NCBI GenBank assembly: GCA_000697355.1
Contig: JNEN01001258.1
Coordinates: 148,767-212,766 of the forward strand
Length of the DNA: 64,000 nt
DNA from: Syncephalastrum monosporum B8922
Lineage: Eukaryota; Mucoromycota; Mucoromycetes; Mucorales; Syncephalastraceae
Reading direction: 5' to 3'
Shown here: one piece after another, positions 26,675 to 55,090 of the stretch
How the letters are laid out: each line of letters starts with the position of its first letter
Position numbering within the stretch: position 1 is the stretch's first letter
Notes under the pieces: generated by a model
Databases searched by the model: none
What the model saw: the letters and a program-made list of their open reading frames with translations, nothing else
Told to the model about the DNA's origin: nothing
Made by a program: the position numbers and the translations under genes

Positions 26675-26732
26675 CCACATATATAGAAACTATATACGGG
26701 CATATTGCCCGAGCCGCCCTGTCTAGGGGGCC
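26675..26732 (-). other. Cluster of hairpins directly 3' of the Fanzor-like stop codon
   Basis: Immediately after the stop of the XPG-Fanzor gene lie three inverted repeats. They are TATATAG-AAA-CTATATA at 26680-26696 (7-bp perfect stem), CGGGCA-TAT-TGCCCG at 26697-26711 (6-bp perfect stem) and a weaker CCCT/AGGG stem near 26717-26730. In TnpB and Fanzor systems the guide RNA scaffold is encoded at the 3' end of the nuclease gene, so placement and structure fit. It could equally be a 3'UTR or terminator-like structure. Confidence 0.4.
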
Positions 26733-29700
26733 TCATACTAGTCTACTTCTTTTTAACTCCCCGTCTGCTTGTTCACTGGGTGCCTTTCTCTTCCCTTTTT
26801 TCTTCCTGCTGGAACCAGAGGTGCTTTCTTGATCCTTTCTGGACAAAGGCGGTATGAAGCACATGGGCTTCTCGCCCGCGACCAAAAGCGTTTCCATCAT
26901 GAGCGCCATATTTTGCGCAGCCATTCCGTCACGATGGAAGTACTTGTGGCATACGCGACATGTTTTTACGCGAAGGACGTCGTACGGCTCAGCTTCAGGT
27001 GATGGGTTTGAGGGCATGCGCTTCAAGTACTCGGTAAAAACCTCTTTACCCAACTGGAGGCAGTGAGGGCAGATTTGGCTTGTGCAATACTCGTTGAGGC
27101 GGACCAAAGGGAAGTCATGACTCTTTGCTTTTCGTTTGAGCGCTTCCAGAAATTTCTCATCCATAGGCGCCCTCGCTCCTTTGCGTGCCGGTCCAGCGCT
27201 CTGGCCATCCATGCCGACGCCGACCAAAACTTTCGTTTCCTCATTGTTGCTTGCCTGCTTCACCGACTCGAGCAGCAAATCGCAAATGCTGTCAAGACGT
27301 GACCGTATGGAACGCTGTATCTCCCATTTTTTCCGGAGAACAGAGGGCCTCGAGTAAAAGTTCCTCAGAATGTCTTTGTTACTGTTCGACTGGTAAGACC
27401 TCAGTTTTGCCATGTATGCATGTGGATTGCCTGCACCAGTAACCTGTCTTGAGATATGGGCCTCGATGTCGTTGATTTTTTCGCGGTCTTTTTTATCTTC
27501 CAGCCACCGAGCATTTGGGTCTGTCAGGCCGTAGGCCTCCTGTCGACGCACGCAAAGCTGTAGGCCACGCCTTGGACCTCCGCTTGGTAAGATGGGCATG
27601 GCGAACGACGCCACCGGACAGACTTCACCGCAATCGAGTGCCAAGACGGCTTTCAATCCACTCTTGGTATCCTCGTTGTCTCTCAGATACTGATCAATGC
27701 TGATAGGCTGGCGTTTGATTGTGCCTCTTGCGGCAGGTTGCATCCAGTTTGTGTACCCTTGTATCACTTTGATTCCGTTCGTGCGAAAAGACGATTGCGG
27801 TGTGTATTGCGCTTCTCGAGTCCCTGGCACTACCTTCTTCAATTTATAGGCGTATGGGCGGTTCTTCAGCTTGATATCTCCTTTATGATGTACTGCTCTG
27901 ACGCCAATATCTAAGACAAAACTGACAGCGCTCTGATCAAACGACAGTGTATCAATATGACGTTTCCTTTTTTTTTCTACACCTTGGAGCTGTCTTTACC
28001 TTTCCCTCTTCCCCGTCTGTAGCATTCCGATAAGCTTTGTAGTCTTCTTTAACAAGATCGATACGGTTGAGCATGGGACTCAGCTGGCTCTCGCTGAAAA
28101 GGATACACGCAGGAGAGAGGCCGGTAGCCGGTACAGGATTGATAAAATCCCTTGAAAAATCAGGCAGGATTTTCTCCATGTCCAATGTTGCTTCCAGCAG
28201 ACGATGGGCCTGTCTCGGTTTCGTTGCTTGCAGAGACTTTGGAGAATCTGATGACGGACGCTGGTAGCCCAGGCCATCGTAGAGATCAAAGCCTTCCGTT
28301 GTGACGGCCTCTTTTGGGCCGCGCGCAATGATAACTGAGCCAAAAAGACGCTCCATCCGGCCTCGGTACGCTTGTACTACTTCTTGAATTCCTTGATGCT
28401 CTTTGACGCCATCTGGTACTGTTCGTAGGGCTTCTTGATCGGGCATAATGCCGCCGTTCGCATGGAGCGGCACACGGAACACAGAAGCAAAGATGTATGC
28501 CCCAATTGAGTCGTGCGCTGGCCATCCTGCAGGTACTGTGGCCATTCTTTTCAGCTGGTTGCAAAGCTCCACGAGATCATTTGGACGGTTTCGGCGTCGA
28601 CGAGACCGAATAAAGCGGCAAATCGACTTTGCCGTATCGGATGGTAGATGCTTGTAGTGGGAGAGCAGAGCTTGACGCACGTCAGCGTCTGAGTTGATCA
28701 TATTGAATAGCCATTGCCGGAACTGATCGTCCACAGGCCAGCCCTTCGGAACTAATGCTGTTGCGCCAAAAGACTGTCGACCAAGGAAATAGATCTTGGG
28801 ATGAAATTGTGGATGATGTTTGCCCGGAAGAGTGAATCGAGCTCTCTTGCCAGAGACTCAATCATCGGGCGTTTTCCCCCAGAACTGTTTAGCACCGGTG
28901 CTTGAGACCAGTCGCCTGCGTAACCCTGCCACCATATGTATCGTGCTTTTAATAAAACGTTACGCAGGGGCGGATTCATTGACATCATGGCGACCAATGA
29001 CTTGATGCTTTTGTCTTCCGGATACGCGATGAAGCTGTTTGGGTTGTGTATCCATCCTGCAGCGTCCAGGCGGGGAGAGACTTGCTGGTATGCCTCAGTT
29101 GCAAAGTCATTGAGGCGCTCATTGGCTGCGTTGACGTAAGCGGTGGTCATGTTTAAGATCCAGGTCCAGGTCTTTTGCGCGCATGATTCACTGGAGTCAG
29201 AAGTCGAAGCAGCTTCATAACCTTGCCAGCGCAGGGTGGAAACAGGATCCCCTACCACACCGCCGCGAGTCGACTGAAAAAAATTGCGGTAGATGTGCTG
29301 CTTGAGCTGGGGGGAATAATCCTCCCTGCTGACGTCTTCCAATGCAATCCGTGCAACCTCTAAAGCCATAGATCGCATGTTGTTTGCTAGTTTGACATCG
29401 CTCCGCAAAGCTGACGTCACAGCTCTTGCTTGCTGTGTTGCGTATTGATGGTCTTCGGGACTACGCTTGATTGCAGCAGATAACACAGAAGAATACAAGC
29501 CTGCGGACCAGGAGCTTGTTGCACGGCTTAAGGGATGCACCTTGGTCAGCTCACCGTCTTCGTTCGGGAGCAGTCGGCTTTGATTCTTATAGATGCGCTT
29601 CTTGGCAACCGAGGGGTCATCCGGTTTATTGAGGCTTCGAGATGATGAGCCTTTTTTCCTCGACTTTTTTGTGGGCTTTTTCTTCTTGGCTTCTTCGCCA

Positions 29701-31354
29701 GTGTCGACTTCTTGACCGAGTAGGGCTTTCGGTACCGAGCTGGTGGTAACGAAGGTGAAGCGGGAGCCTTTATCCGAATCAGTAGCTACAATAAACACGG
29801 AGTTTAATACTATGTTTGCACATTTTTAGGTTCTGCAAATATCTACCTGCTGCTGTTGCTGTTGCTGTTGCTGTTGGCGGCTTGCGGCAGATTCTGTCGC
29901 CGTACATTTCATCCAGCAATTTAATGCTGGCTTTGATGTTGATGCCTTGGTGGACAGTCTTCGTGGATATATCCCCGCTATTGGTCAAGACGTAAGGGCA
30001 GCAAAACTGATGTAGGGACACCTGGTACCGCCGTATGTCGTACTCCGAAAGCCATGGGATTTTATCGAGTACCTATTGCTTTTGTTAGTATCATACTATA
30101 TCCTGTACTCCTCACAGTGTTATAACCTTTTCCATCAAATTGAGGGCATCTTCATGGGGAGGTGTAAGGTCTATTTCAAGCACCATGTCTTGGATGCGCT
30201 TGAATGCATGTTTCTTTGGATTGCTTGCATAGTCATTTCCCGACAAAGACGCAATGACCGCCAAGCGCGTCTCGGCCTATGCTTATATAAGCTATAATTC
30301 AACAGTATATGCGAAACTCTACCTTTCGAAAATCACTTCCGTCTCGTGCGTTTTTCAGGTTTAGACTTGTGAGGAGGTTTCTTTTTGTTGTCACTCTGGA
30401 TAACAATGTGTCGTTCTCCCATCCGACTTGCAGTATGCGCTACAGAGATATTAAAAGTTATTAGAAGCGGGGTCCTGGAATCTCCCTCTTTTCTCGCGTC
30501 TGTATACGTACCAAACAGTTTAATGCGCCGCCGTAGGCAAACAAGTCGCCATCCCTAGTCATAATGGCCGGTCGGCCAGGCCATGATGCCGCCAAATAGA
30601 CAACTTGTGCATCAGCTTCTCGTAGAGAAACAAAGAATGAAAGCGGTGGCAGCGACGACATTTCTTGCTGATATTGTCGTATGCCGGATGCTAATAGTAG
30701 CTGCATTGATACACAACAGCATGGACAATAATGAGTAAGTAAAGCATATACTGTGAAGGAGAGACCGCTCCTGAGTACCTCGACGACCGTCTTCTTTATA
30801 TCCCTAGTGAAGCGCGTATGCGCCCGGGCGTGGCGTTGTATTATATCACTGATATCCTGTTGTTTCGACCGACGACATAGACGCGCGGCTATCTTTAACG
30901 CATGATTTGCGTCTGACTCTCTTTTGATGGTGGTCCGACGCTTCGGTTCAAATGGTGTCTCGCTGTCCAAAACGAGACATGCGCGCCGTTCACCTTCCGC
31001 GGTCAGCCGCATGGTGGCCTGGATCATGTCCTGGGTAAATGCATGTAGAGCATGGTGTAGGCCTTGCTTGGAAGTTGTGCTGCTGGCCCCGCCTATATCT
31101 ATGCCTTGAAGCATTATATTAGTGGGCCGTGATAATGACTTTGCTTACTGTTAGTCATACGTACCCTTTCGTGTGTACATGTCATAAGTGAGCAGGGGAG
31201 CTCCGACCTTTTTTGACAACATGTTGAAAAAGACGCAACAGACATCGACAAAGATCATATCCACGTTTTCTTGCTTCAGGCGTTGAAGCAAGTCAACGTT
31301 GTCTTCATAAGCCTTGGCTTTTGTGGCGTGATAATGAAGGTTTTTGACCCCCAT
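26733..31354 (-). CDS. XPG/FEN1-type nuclease fused to a TnpB/Fanzor-like RuvC nuclease
   Basis: Nine exons join in frame to 1368 residues: 31354-31165, 31104-30779, 30700-30512, 30439-30323, 30276-30127, 30072-29847, 29785-28851, 28773-28000, 27932-26733. Residues 1-about 330 match the XPG/FEN1 superfamily: start MGVKNLHYH, then D37 (MIFVDVCCVFF), D110 (CLVLDSETPFEPKRRTT), E200/D202 (LREADAQVVYL), D222/D224 (MTRDGDLFAYGG) and H3TH-like D289 (LAVIASLSGNDYASN). These correspond to the family's catalytic carboxylates. Residues about 400-960 are unrecognised, with a Lys-rich KKKKPTKKSRKK stretch. The C-terminus matches TnpB/Fanzor: D1069 (VLALDCGEVCPVASF), E1250 (LVRLNEYCTSQ), zinc ribbon C1257/C1260 and C1294/C1297, and D1304 (FHRDGMAAQNM). 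Intron 7 (28850-28774) is GC-AG; the other introns are GT-AG. A Lys/Arg-rich tail (KKKGKRK) suggests nuclear entry. Function unknown; no terminal repeats or transposase seen nearby. Confidence 0.82.
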
Positions 31355-31739
31355 ATTTGAAACGTAATGGGGAGAAATGAATATGTAATAGCGTGAACGG
31401 TGATAGAGTAGCAAGACAGGAGGAGAGAACGAAGAGAAAAGGTGAAGTCAAAGCGGAAGAGAAGAGAAGAGATAAAGCTGACTACACTCACCCATATTGT
31501 GATCGTTCTAATACTTTTCTCATGAATCAGATAATATTATACAGTCGAGTGTGTCAGACTCAAACAATGATAGACAGCAACGTATCAGTCGAATTTTATT
31601 GAACCACATAGAGAAGCTGCATATAACTTCCCGATACCGGTTCTCTACTTGTATGAAGTGTTCACAATTTTCTCGGTCGGCACGACATTGTTGCAACATA
31701 AATCTCGTGCATGGTCGATAGGTAGATCTCCCCAGTTAT
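31355..31739. other. Spacer and promoter side of the XPG-Fanzor gene
   Basis: About 385 bases upstream of the fusion gene start, up to the SEC61-alpha relic. The first 100 bases contain a minus-strand pyrimidine-rich leader. No additional gene recognised. Confidence 0.5.
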
Positions 31740-32413
31740 GCTCTGTGTGGAGGACCGAAAGCTCATCAGACCGCGGAATCCTTGTTGCGCTCAATATACA
31801 TCTCTCTATTTGATCTCGCAGATGCTTCAAGCGCTTCCAGAACGTCCTGGTGCGCGTTCTCGGCGTTTGGGAACAATTCGAGGGCTCCAACTAACTCTTC
31901 GCTACGGATGGTTTTGCCTACTACCTCTTCGCGCCGCGCAGCTTCACGGCCGCACTGTTGGATCCTGTCCACACACCGTCGTCTATATTGCCTTTAGGCT
32001 CGGCGCTTGCGCTTTCCTTTCGTCCATTTGGATCCAGGTCTTCGGCTCGCCGCCGCGCGATATCTCCCGCCAGCTCAAGGAGCAGCAGGTTGTGATCGTG
32101 GGTTACCATGCCGAGTCTCAGCACAAGGAGCTGAACCGTGCAAATCCCATCGCTGCTTCCTTTGGTGACGCTATCCTCGGTGCTATCTCGGTCCTCGCTA
32201 ACATGCTGGGCACCACTGGCTCTGGCAACGGGTATCCTGTTGTGCGTCACGATTATTTTCCAGGTAAGAAAAATACACATGAGTTTATGGGATGTTTGGT
32301 TTAGGTAAACTTACTTTTTTTTATGTTTCGTCGTAGTATTTTGAGATGTTTGTCAAGGAGAAGATGGATAACGGCATGAGCATGGAGAGCATGATGGCTG
32401 CTGGTATGCAGTA
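31740..32413 (+). pseudogene. SEC61A: SEC61-alpha C-terminal fragment, decayed
   Basis: Translocon pore subunit relic covering only the last part of the protein. Recognisable pieces: LYLISQMLQ, then (shifted frame) NVLVRVLGVWEQFEGSN followed by a TAA stop, LFATDGFAYYL, FTAALLDPVHTVVYIAF, DISRQLKEQQVVIVGYH, HKELNRANPIAASFGDAILG. After another one-base shift come GILLCVTIIFQ, an intron with GTAAGA donor and TAG acceptor (about 32263-32338), and YFEMFVKEKMDNG to the end near 32413. At least two frameshifts and one stop. The retained intron at the homologous place shows a DNA-level duplicate rather than a reverse-transcribed one. The functional SEC61 gene is not in this window. Confidence 0.88.
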
Positions 32414-33509
32414 AAAAAAAAAAAAAAAGAACCCAAAAATAAAGGAACAAAGAAAAAAAAGCAGTAAGTCTTTATGCAGACGTGCAATGGTTTTGTAACT
32501 TCAAGGCTCAGACTGGATGTGACAGAATCTTGCAAAGTTGCCTCGATGTCAAGTACCTTGTCGTATCGTGGATCCAGATGTACGATGTCACTGACCTCTC
32601 TTGGCCTCCTCTTATTAACGCATCAAATTTAGGTGTTGTCGTATTGAAGCCGTCGTCGAATCTTCTACAGATTTTGAGTCACGTTTTTGCTCCCCGTGGG
32701 GAGGTTGAGAAGGAGGCCTCTGCGATTGAAGTGGATTTCCAGATCAAGATATTTATTGGCGACTGGAGCATGTAAAAGGCTTCGGAACTGAGCATGACGA
32801 CTCGCTCAATTAAATCCTTCCGCTACATTTATCAAGCGCGACAGGCTACTTTTTTTTTGTGGTGCCTCCAGTCGATTAACTCGCAGATTATACGGACAAC
32901 CTTTCACCATATCTACCTTGGCCAACAAACATAGTGTCAACAACTTAATGGACAACGACAACGCATGTATCATCGCGTCACGAACATTGCTGTTGGTGTC
33001 AATGTGATGGAGGCACCAAAAACAGCCACTTTGGACAAGCCAACCGGTGAATAATATTTTGCACAATGTATCATGTGATGTCCTAGCGTAGCGCAAAACT
33101 CACTTATTACACGAGAGTTGTGCTACGGTCTTTCACCTACCCACCCGCCTGCTTTCTACCAGCTGACCTGGAAGTTTGGCGAAAATGAAGAAATAGGCAT
33201 TCTGGGGAATAAGGATTTGAACAAAGAATTGACCAAGTTATAGAGGAGGCCCAGGGTAGGATGAATAAGGGAATGGCCCCCCTTGGATGCACAGAGAAAG
33301 GGGTGCCCCCCGTCCGGCAATGTCCGCCACACATACACAAAATGATACTTAGGAGGTTGAAGCTTTTCTGGAAAGATGCATGCCCTGCCTCCCCGTCCTC
33401 CTGATATACAAGGAAACGTGATCACGGGTTGGGTATATACGAAATGGTCTATTACAAGCACAAAGAGATAGAGTACAGATAGATAGAAGGGAAAGAAGAG
33501 ACGAATGGA
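32414..33509. other. Intergenic region, no recognised gene
   Basis: About 1.1 kb after the SEC61-alpha relic. It begins with an A-run (32414-32429). A 97-codon plus-strand frame (32482-32775) has no family resemblance and may be chance. A short imperfect inverted repeat GTAGCGCAAAACTC/GAGTTGTGCTAC lies near 33087-33124. Nothing else supportable. Confidence 0.4.
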
Positions 33510-34010
33510 TTACCAGTCAAGCTTCTCGTCCTTCTTGCAATCGTTTTGGTGAGGACAGGCGTTTAGGGATGCCCAGCCACCACCGGAGCGACCGCTCTTA
33601 CCGAGGCCAAACTCCCAATAATGAAGGGTGCAGAGTAAGACGGGACCGGTCTCGGGTGGGTATTTATCTTCTGCTACTTCTCCTAAGTAGGTCAGGCCGG
33701 CTCCGGCGTGTGGACAATACCAGTCGGCTGTGTACTGTTTGCTCGACCCGAGTGTAATAAGAATGCGCTCATCGTCAGAAGGATCGACTTCAATGGTGGG
33801 CTCCTTCTTTGGAATTGCGTTGTCGTCCTTTTTCTCGGGTGCTTCCTTGGGCTCTTCCTTCTCAGGGTCCTCCGTCGCTGTCTTTGTGTCTTGCTCCTTT
33901 GCGCCTTTCCCTTCTTGCGTATCCGCAGCGCTCTTGGGTTCCTCCGGCTTGGTCTGCTCCTCTTTGACAGTGAGATTGTTAAGGGATTGCGTGACTTGCT
34001 GGACTTGGTC
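33510..34010 (-). CDS. Rieske [2Fe-2S] domain protein (RFESD-like); 5' exon unresolved
   Basis: The C-terminal half carries a Rieske-type cluster site, CPHAGAGLTYLGEV then, after a Tyr/Pro-rich loop, LLCTLHYWEFGLGKSG. CxH and CxxH supply the two Cys and two His ligands, with a longer gap (25 residues) than the usual 15-17. It resembles the soluble Rieske ferredoxin-like group rather than the bc1 subunit; no membrane anchor is seen. The first half is a Lys/Glu/Pro-rich linker (EEQTKPEEPKSAADTQEG onward), probably disordered. The frame has no in-frame ATG near its start. An upstream exon, for example one beginning MDQSTGSEYRGYLLYE near 34192, spliced by a GTACAG-type donor to a GTACAG acceptor, is plausible but not established. 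The stop is at 33510. Electron transfer is inferred from the ligands. Confidence 0.7.
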   Translation of the reverse strand, partial: DQVQQVTQSLNNLTVKEEQTKPEEPKSAADTQEGKGAKEQDTKTATEDPEKEEPKEAPEKKDDNAIPKKEPTIEVDPSDDERILITLGSSKQYTADWYCPHAGAGLTYLGEVAEDKYPPETGPVLLCTLHYWEFGLGKSGRSGGGWASLNACPHQNDCKKDEKLDW

Positions 34011-34908
34011 CACACGCTGTACTTGATCGTCGGTTCAAACATGGCCAACCTGTGTATTTTTCTCTCGGTCAATCCATTCGCCCCCGCTGAATATAGGTGA
34101 GCATAGCACTCACTCACTGTACGACCCTGGTAAAAATTATACGGCTGACCGACCGCTCGTATAAGAGATATCCACGATACTCTGATCCAGTGCTCTGATC
34201 CATTCTGTCACTACACAAATAAATAAGCTATACTTTATGCTGCACGTAATGATTCTCTCAACAGCAATAAGAGCACTGACTTATGTGCACTATCAAGGCA
34301 AGCATAATTGTCTCACACATTAGAAGATTAGGAAATGGTAGGATAACGTTGGAAGGTGTATGCAACAGTACCTTGAGAGAGAGTATTTCATGCGTACGCG
34401 TCGTCATAGAGTCATATGCATTATAATTCGCTTCTCATGAAGAACTGGGCGCGTCCTTTTTTTTTTTGGTAAAAACCTAAGAACATGATCCAGAACAGGC
34501 AAAGAGGAACAGTAAAGGAAACCATTTGATGTACAAACCGGAGCCAAGCTCCTGGGTGCATGAGTATCGTATAACCTGTAGTTTCATGACAGCATTGTAA
34601 ATGCTACATAAATGATCCCATCGCTTTTTCATATGATTGTGTAAAACTGCATAGAGCTGCGTTGATATATGTATGCCGCTCGTAGTACTAGTACTATATA
34701 CACTCCCTTCTTTCACGCTCCTCTCTTCCTCCTGGCTCTCCTCGCTTGCTGCTCCTGTGAGCCTCCCTGGTATCCTTTTTATCTCCAGGACACTAAAGAT
34801 AGCTTTTATCTTTTCCCTTTTACTTTTTGCTCTTCCTCTTTTTCTCATATACCCTCTTTTTCTAACTTTTTCCTCGGTATCACCTTTTGGAATCACTTCA
34901 CGACAATA
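34011..34908. other. Spacer between the Rieske gene and the coiled-coil gene
   Basis: About 0.9 kb, divergent arrangement. It probably includes the 5' exon of the Rieske gene (to about 34200) and the promoter and pyrimidine-rich leader (34690-34890) of the plus-strand gene at 34909. A T-run sits near 34458-34467. No other gene seen. Confidence 0.4.
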
Positions 34909-53516: not shown

Positions 53517-53944
53517 CGTTCAATCACTGCACTGGGTTGGGTTGGGTTGAGGGTGCGTATGTGTTGATTATGGGTGCGTATAACGTAAAAATAGGTGCTT
53601 TCGCTTCAGGGCGCGTGATTTCAATCTGGTGGGATTTCATGTTCAAAATCGATTGGCTGGTCTGCAGCATCGACATAAAAATCGGGACTTTTTTTTTTTT
53701 TTTTTTTTTTGTTTCTATCCAGGGGATTTGTACCTTTTACAGGTCTTTCAACTGTACGCGCCTATCGGCCCGAGCCATACAAGTGCGCTTGTTGATGGAT
53801 AATGGACCTTGTGAGGCCGGTCGCTTCCTTGTTTGCGTGCCCTTGAGATCCTTACTGGAGATATAAACGGGGTAGGGCCCTGCCCGTATGTGACCATGCT
53901 TCTCAAAGTATGTGCAACGTTATGGGCAGCCATACCACCAATGC
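53517..53944. other. Promoter side of SCJ1
   Basis: About 430 bases upstream of the DnaJ gene. A 22-nt T-tract (53689-53710) lies about 175 bases from the start codon, and there are GGTTGGGTTGGGTTGAGGGT repeats at 53531-53552. No gene seen. Confidence 0.45.
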
Positions 53945-55090
53945 CTGGCTAGTAAAAGATACTGGTCTACACTGACAAGACGAGAAGATGGCTAGCTTCT
54001 TTCGACTTTCTTGCCAGAGCATTCATCGACCCTACATCCATGGACGACTGTCTGCCTTTTGTCGTCTGATCGGTAAAGCCACCGTCCATGCCAAGGCCTA
54101 TCAGTAGCTTCTGTTCTGCTTGCTGGTGCCTGGGAGTGCAGAATCAAGGATATGATTTGAGAGGCGGTCGAAAGCTGATCGGATGGAACGCAACACGTCC
54201 CATGACTCCCTTTCCACGACATTGGTGCTGTAGAACGACGACTACACTACACGCCTCCTGTCTGCAATGCCCGTATGTATGCGAGGAATTGGTCGGAACG
54301 CCCTCCACGTCGTACACGTCTCCGCGGTCTTTCCGCAGTCCAAATCAGCGTACATTCATGCCGTTCTTGCCGTACGCTTCCCCGCTTTCCCACATGAAGG
54401 CAGACGCAGGCGTCCTGCGAGTGCCAATAATCCAAACTGTCAGACTTGGAGTCAAGGTAATCGAGTTGTCAAAGGCTGGAAGCCATGACTCACATGAAAA
54501 CTCCACCGGAATCAGTCCGCTTTTGTGAAAGGGTGCATCATCTTTACGTGTAATGTATTAGCGGCAGAGAGCTGAGGAGGCAGCTGGAAGACATTGGTGC
54601 CAGCGTGCTTTTTTCTATAGGCCTTCAGGGCGTCCAAAGTCTCGTTTGCGATCTGAACGAATGGCAAGTATTGATCGATAGGAGAAAGACTTGCTTGTGG
54701 GTGTGACGCAGAAGGGCTGTAAAAACTGTCACAACGACCGCATCCGGCTTTTAAACCGTGAGCTCAGGGTCCCAAATGCAGGCTTTCCGCGCATATCTTG
54801 GGGAATCGTCCGCAGAACACCCCTCCTTGCTGAACAGGAAATGCTTCCGAAGGCCCTCGAGCTGCCGAGACCGTGCAGCCCTAGGGCCCTTCTCGATAGC
54901 CATGCTAGGATGTTACACGGCGGATCGACTAGTTTACCTTTCTCCTCGCAGTACTACTCGGCGATTTGGCCTTTCTTTCTTTCTTGGCTCTTTTTCTTTT
55001 CTTGTTTTTTTCGTCTTTTTAAAAGCCTTGCTTTTGCTTCCCTGTTCTTTGTCCTCGTCCGCTATGGTGGCGGCAGCGACCTCCTTTATG
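53945..55090 (-). pseudogene. Decayed gene of unknown family
   Basis: A series of minus-strand segments reads protein-like but cannot be joined in one frame. In order: a Lys-rich stretch near 55080-54960 (KTRKEKEPRKKERPNRRVVL); a good 40-nt intron (GTAAAC to CCTAG) leading to MAIEKGPRAARSRQLEGLRK and KACIWDPEL near 54900-54760; a frame change at a TAA; YLPFVQIANETLDALKAYRK and GTNVFQLPPQLSAANTLHVK near 54650-54560; another break after HPFTKAD; SLTVWIIGTRRTPASAFMWE near 54430; and LIGLGMDGGFTDQTTKGRQS to the region's end. At least two frameshifts and internal stops suggest a pseudogene. Undetected introns could account for some breaks. Family not recognised. Confidence 0.4.

Follow-up and report, generated by a model that had tools for sequence, protein, structure and literature searches.

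The window analysed here is a stretch of 64,000 nucleotides from Syncephalastrum monosporum B8922 (contig JNEN01001258.1 of assembly GCA_000697355.1, positions 148,767-212,766, forward strand). Between 26.7 and 31.4 kb its minus strand carries a spliced gene in which an XPG/EXO1-like 5' nuclease module precedes a Fanzor1-like RNA-guided nuclease module. We propose that the product is a mobile-element protein that would process R-loops and flaps; for this reading as a whole, mechanism included, our confidence is somewhat better than even. The fusion itself is in all likelihood real, and it looks old. Directly observed are both sets of catalytic residues, one spliced frame (open in copy C164), and a family of multiple copies with a shared 3' end and with hairpins at that end. 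Genome searches were done in the window's own assembly (27.5 Mb, 198 contigs), and copies are labelled C plus the contig number.

The minus strand of this region was re-spliced by hand, starting from the nine-exon model of a first-pass annotation. The exons of that model joined in consistent phase, as it had reported, and gave 1377 residues here versus 1368 there. Our revised model has eight exons:

26733..31354, minus strand: XPG-Fanzor fusion gene, eight exons; window copy frameshifted near 28.77 kb
31165..31354, minus strand: exon 1, XPG N-region, starts MGVKNLH and contains D37
30779..31104, minus strand: exon 2, XPG, D110
30512..30700, minus strand: exon 3, XPG I-region with E200, D202, D222 and D224
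30323..30439, minus strand: exon 4
30127..30276, minus strand: exon 5, XPG GND motif, D289
29847..30072, minus strand: exon 6, end of the XPG module and repeat linker
28000..29785, minus strand: exon 7, modelled as in C164; basic linker and conserved middle part
26733..27932, minus strand: last exon, WED TNG motif, RuvC-I D1078, alternative E1259, C4 zinc ribbon and RuvC-III D1313

DNA comparison with three near-identical copies (C164, C173, and C13) showed that one base present in all of them near 28.77 kb is missing from the window copy; C13 also carries 11 inserted bases in this region. Intron 7 of the nine-exon model (28846-28895 as placed here) was rejected: the three copies carry the extra base, and C164 reads through, its exon 7 region being a single open frame of 624 residues. 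This intron is very probably not a true one, and the window copy would have eight exons and a frameshift, or else an assembly error. The frameshift had escaped notice because the exon 7/8 split of the earlier model steps past the missing base. C164 is a full-length copy, 97.8% identical to the window over 6.8 kb of DNA and open end to end; it encodes 1397 residues plus a 29-residue tail from a changed stop codon (stop loss). The earlier argument that two intact domains speak against decay is valid for C164 but not for the frameshifted window copy.

The N-terminal module contains the FEN1/XPG carboxylates D37, D110, E200, D202, D222, D224, and D289, all in order and at the positions numbered in the first-pass annotation. 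The seven are retained in C164 and in C166, a paralogue 43% identical to C164, and E200, D202, D222, D224, and D289 are invariant in a four-sequence alignment. An hhalign comparison of the module with four XPG-family proteins of the same genome, assembled by eye, gave a probability of 96.5% (E 8.3e-10 for a single comparison), and five column-shuffled controls gave 0.6% or less. Six of the seven carboxylates fall in the aligned stretch (86-306). Against single proteins, the probability was 96.2% for an EXO1-like, 53% for a GEN1-like, and 0.5% for an Asteroid-like protein. Exonuclease 1 occupied rows 1-5 of the ten in a PDB profile search (best E 2.5e-4). Because the hhalign and PDB results favour EXO1, we take the module to be a remote, EXO1-leaning relative of the XPG family. 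It resembles the XPG/FEN1/EXO1 5' nucleases in its seven ordered carboxylates, with EXO1 nearest by sequence; it differs from them in its identity of about 20%, its score under the Pfam cut-off, its junction to a Fanzor, and its place in a mobile element. The Pfam family XPG_I matched the window exon (E 0.0072), C164 (0.011), C166 (0.025, genome search), and two deposited proteins, P0001 from Apophysomyces ossiformis (2.1e-4) and P0002 from Syncephalastrum racemosum (1166 residues; 2.8e-4). Genome-wide, five of seven XPG_I matches pass the cut-off; C166 and C129 fail.

The C-terminal half had been assigned to TnpB/Fanzor, and this was upheld: Pfam Cas12f1-like_TNB matched the last exon at E 1.6e-9 (38.2 bits, cut-off 26.3), and a PDB profile search with the module placed Parasitella Fanzor1 first (6.1e-4) and Spizellomyces Fanzor1 next (0.0024). 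NCBIfam guided_TnpB reached 30.1 bits over the same stretch, far under its 100-bit cut-off. The RuvC triad is present, but its numbering changes from D1069/E1250/D1304 to D1078/E1259/D1313 in the revised model. The Fanzor1 signature D-X(125-275)-[TS][TS]-XX-C4 ribbon-RD is found in C164 as D1098, T1282-S1283, CPHC/CRVC, and RD1333. An alternative Glu directly ahead of the ribbon (ExxxxxxCxxC) is described for Fanzors (PMC10711439); here, E-Y/F-x-T-S-Q-x-C occurs in all three aligned sequences (C164, C166, and C186). The same source describes DPG in RuvC-I as nearly exclusive to Fanzors and a TDG motif in WED (PMC10711439). The WED motif is TDG in P0001, P0002, C166, and C186, TNG in the window, C164, and C162, and RDG in the decayed C94. 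We consider the C-terminal half best named Fanzor1-like, since its RuvC-I reads DCG, DLG, or DFG rather than DPG. It shares with the Fanzor1 proteins SpuFz1, GtFz1, and PpFz1, as these are described, the RuvC D-E-D with alternative Glu, the C4 ribbon, TDG (here in relatives), 3'-end hairpins, and a mobile-element setting (PMC3627910, PMC10432273, PMC11423790); that RuvC-I motif and the added N-terminal XPG module set it apart.

A gene model can merge two neighbouring genes, in this case an XPG-like gene and a Fanzor, and a low-complexity linker does lie between exons 6 and 7. We regard such a merger as very improbable, given two deposited single-protein models. P0002 runs from the XPG start through RuvC-I in one protein (42.3% identical to C164 over 1206 positions and 74.5% to C166 over 1188), and P0001 runs from mid-XPG onward, with the first two carboxylate regions absent. 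The homologue searches yielded one protein each among the 8000 and 7997 candidates scored, those with most words in common, a yield that carries no implication of wider absence. Six of the seven introns of C164 and C166 lie at the same aligned residue and in the same phase; the seventh lies in the gappy linker at residue 400 versus 388, 12 apart, with identical phase. In C166, intron 6 keeps its phase, and the first in-frame Met of exon 7 is preceded by conserved residues: residues 387-538 of C164 contain no Met, and residues 448-507 are rich in positions invariant across three sequences. The earlier claim of both domains in one gene was thus borne out by profile searches, shared introns, and the deposited models. 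A homologue search with the C-terminal part found nothing at E up to 10 among 3460 candidates scored, and pattern scans of viral contigs gave 600 and 8 fitting stretches, none of them confirmed.

Used as protein queries against the assembly, the middle, last, and linker exons and XPG exon 2 gave 14, 52, 13, and six matches, respectively, many of which are pieces of one locus. Two frameshifts and two stops mark C166; C162 carries several such lesions and is interrupted as well, and C167 and C180 are remnants of the XPG half. Compared with C164 in 50-residue blocks, C162 has 82-96% identity over residues 1-350, falls to 76% in the block after that, and past residue 400 ranges over 0-73%, mostly 28-56%. 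C162 (L015) is a chimera with an XPG part near that of the window and a distant Fanzor part, and the XPG module with its 5' flank has moved as a block between Fanzor backbones. The ratio of nonsynonymous to synonymous substitution rates (Ka/Ks) of the XPG part is 0.24 between C164 and C162 (over 346 codons, with 48 synonymous changes and 44 others), which speaks for selection on this part; outside it, synonymous sites are saturated. The assembly also holds a second Fanzor lineage, L037, L040, L042, L046, and L047 (C158, C185, C98, C1, and C179 at 32.4 kb), at whose loci the XPG exon 2 search had no match.

The fusion gene belongs to a multi-copy mobile element, because ten Fanzor loci share its 3' end, near-identical copies have different flanks, and many relatives are decayed. 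The main parts of the element are the following:

26680..31735, minus strand: core element; C180, C147, and C17 are homologous as far as 31733-31735
26680..26715, no strand assigned: conserved 3' end of the element, containing a 23-mer at 26693-26715
26680..26735, minus strand: candidate omegaRNA scaffold, hairpins that begin at the stop codon and extend to the end of the element
31735..34095, no strand assigned: 5' extension, shared with C164 and partly with C162; host-like gene fragments

The 23-mer TATACGGGCATATTGCCCGAGCC, located between the stop codon and the element end, occurs 11 times in the genome at up to 3 mismatches, and its reversed control does not occur. Ten of the 11 sites lie 3' of Fanzor RuvC matches (the C38 match is weak, E 0.006). 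The eleventh, in C180, is inverted and lies 5' of an XPG remnant; it is more likely the end of a neighbouring element. Classic terminal inverted repeats (TIRs) were rejected, as the window holds a single copy of the 3' motif. The end base agrees within 5 nucleotides in eight loci (window, C176, C24, C173, C156, C164, C147, and C184), and the first six of these are near-identical inside with differing flanks. On the 5' side, window and C164 homology runs jointly to 34095, with C164 lacking about 350 bases of the extension, and that of C162 runs to 33193. Folding of the 5' end was no better than that of shuffles, which leaves a terminal hairpin there unsupported. C147 (L034) and C17 (L054) are internally deleted derivatives of about 0.8 kb that keep both ends and resemble miniature inverted-repeat transposable elements.

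Among known systems, the MCi-2 Fanzor element of Mucor circinelloides is also multi-copy, from Mucorales and without recognizable TIRs, with a constant 3' part holding the Fanzor gene and a variable 5' part (PMC3627910), an arrangement also found in the window family. MCi-2 differs in its 11-12 bp target-site duplications (TSDs) and, in part, in carrying a fragment of a Crypton transposase (PMC3627910); no TSD of the MCi-2 pattern ATAATTNNNN was found at the window, C164, or C147. The main text of that paper contains neither XPG nor FEN. Helitron2 and the one-ended Fanzor elements CRe-1 to 3 share the 3' hairpins and the variable 5' end, as described there (PMC3627910), but here no RepHel was found in the open reading frames (ORFs) scanned and a 5' hairpin was unsupported.

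The strand between the stop codon and the end of the element can pair GAGCC/GGCUC, GGGCA/UGCCC and, in some copies, UAUAUAG/CUAUAUA; this third helix is broken in some copies. The first hairpin, whole or partial, is in the minimum free energy form of seven of eight sequences in single folds (C162 excepted), the shuffle z-scores of the eight folds range from -4.48 to +0.80, and the element end of the window folded as DNA was better than all 200 shuffles. A covariance model built from six sequences, whose E-values are rough, finds C17 (E 5e-5, 23.7 bits) and, at 47.5 bits, the C180 motif, as well as five near-identical copies that were not used for training. It also matches the training locus L036 on the opposite strand (0.00098), as expected because the motif is palindromic. 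Covariation in the six training sequences is weak: two of 17 pairs changed on both sides, which 32 of 500 shuffles equalled. MAFFT with RNAalifold on 12 mixed 3' ends gave two pairs only, and an Rfam search of the motif had no match. Second-lineage Fanzor loci have a similar hairpin pair just behind the gene, a likeness based on single folds and stems assigned by hand; the first stem reads UAACC/GGUUA or UAGCC/GGCUA with compensated changes, and C158, C98, and C162 have one mismatched pair. A Fanzor1 omegaRNA with a guide from the flank has been described (PMC10711439). We infer that the 3' hairpin motif is an omegaRNA scaffold whose guide comes from the DNA flanking each insertion.

With the hairpins as scaffold and the flanking DNA as guide, the Fanzor half would open an R-loop where the sequence matches, for instance at an empty sister or allele, and cut with its RuvC centre. 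The tethered XPG half would then cut single-strand/double-strand junctions or 5' flaps of the R-loop, which would convert the cut into a gapped or resected break for repair by copying of the element. Such R-loop or flap cutting is plausible because purified XPG is reported to cleave an R-loop flank (PMC7286691), and a gapped or resected break would fit the spread by cut-and-copy that has been discussed for TnpB and possibly for Fanzor (PMC10432273). A further-reaching version, which we consider improbable, is a transposase-free RNA-guided element for which Fanzor and XPG together would be the whole mobility machine. Its 3' end would be fixed because it doubles as omegaRNA scaffold beside the guide, its 5' end would be ragged and laden with host fragments because insertion is completed by repair copying, and the XPG module would process the R-loop or displaced flap, channelling the Fanzor cut into copying.

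Several results weigh against the proposed fusion nuclease and its mechanism. The first-pass annotation had suggested profile searches for both domains; TNB scored above its cut-off, but XPG_I stayed below it at every score given here (best 22.1 versus 24.9 bits) and XPG_N gave no match. None of the ten rows of the PDB search with the XPG-module profile was a FEN1 or XPG chain, hhalign against the genome's FEN1-like protein alone gave 1.9%, and D37, outside the stretch aligned by hhalign, was matched by eye. RuvC-I departs from DPG as described above. The window copy is frameshifted, and among the six XPG-bearing loci, C164 alone is fully open in the models made here. The Ka/Ks values between C164 and the window are 0.42, 0.56, and 0.72 for three gene parts, with few changes. 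P0001 and P0002 cannot show a complete second active site because both end ahead of TNB/RuvC-III (zinc ribbon). The element ORFs scanned, a part of the total, contain no transposase domain, and no convincing TSD was found: the window and C164 have only a TA-rich micro-overlap, and C147 has nothing longer than 4 bp. At E up to 10, the covariance model fails to recover C147 or the second lineage of Fanzors.

The same fusion could carry its XPG module as a structure-specific DNA-binding or positioning domain, or as an old captured passenger that cuts nothing in the mobile-element cycle. The subthreshold XPG_I scores fit this, capture would be in character for an element that holds other host-like fragments, and the module has moved as a block, as in the C162 chimera. 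We nevertheless find it unlikely: the seven carboxylates are kept at 43% identity in C164 and C166, five are invariant in four sequences, and the XPG Ka/Ks is 0.24. The XPG superfamily cleaves 5' flaps, and the module might act on another nucleic acid, either the 5' side of an omegaRNA precursor or flaps of the element's transposition intermediate; the motif begins at the stop codon and so would need release from the mRNA 3' end. This seems quite unlikely to us, as other Fanzors are reported with an omegaRNA or reRNA and the passages describing them name no domain of this kind (PMC10711439, PMC10432273). A domesticated host nuclease of defence or repair would agree with a single open copy (C164) and with paired nucleases, but the multiple near-identical copies, the many decayed relatives, and the common element end make it extremely improbable. 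Where the earlier annotation had left open a new genome-defence, mobile-element, or repair system, the shared 3' end, the copies, and the decayed relatives speak for a mobile-element gene, and no finding of this analysis points to defence or repair.

Fanzor1 in fungal mobile elements and XPG nucleases are already known. Among open-licence full texts, with supplements outside this scope, we found no paper describing the joint protein, an RNA-guided nuclease with its own structure-specific flap nuclease. For two animal-virus contigs, one paper mentions "candidate Fanzor flap endonuclease homologs", and its text on them describes no fusion (PMC11071296). If both centres of the proposed protein work, it could by itself convert a guided cut into a defined gap or a resected end. 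This would bear on the ways in which Fanzors help their elements to spread and would have direct use in genome editing, in which the outcome of repair depends on how the ends are processed.

Two host-like gene fragments were recognized at the 5' side of the element:

31726..32301, plus strand: SecY/Sec61-like fragment (PF00344, 1.5e-10); its open frame begins just inside the core
33513..34034, minus strand: Rieske-like fragment (PF00355, 1e-4), within the 5' extension

The Sec61-like and Rieske-like fragments have near-copies at C60 (88%) and C154 (94%), and 33069-33157 is a repeat of about 89 bp that is scattered over the genome in dozens of copies. The right flank of the element (34095-34669) has 96-97% copies at C159 and C112; C112 repeats the C164 junction too. 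Elsewhere in the window, 53806-54303 is a decayed fragment with about 75% DNA similarity to the RuvC-exon region of the C166, C3, and C116 Fanzor copies.

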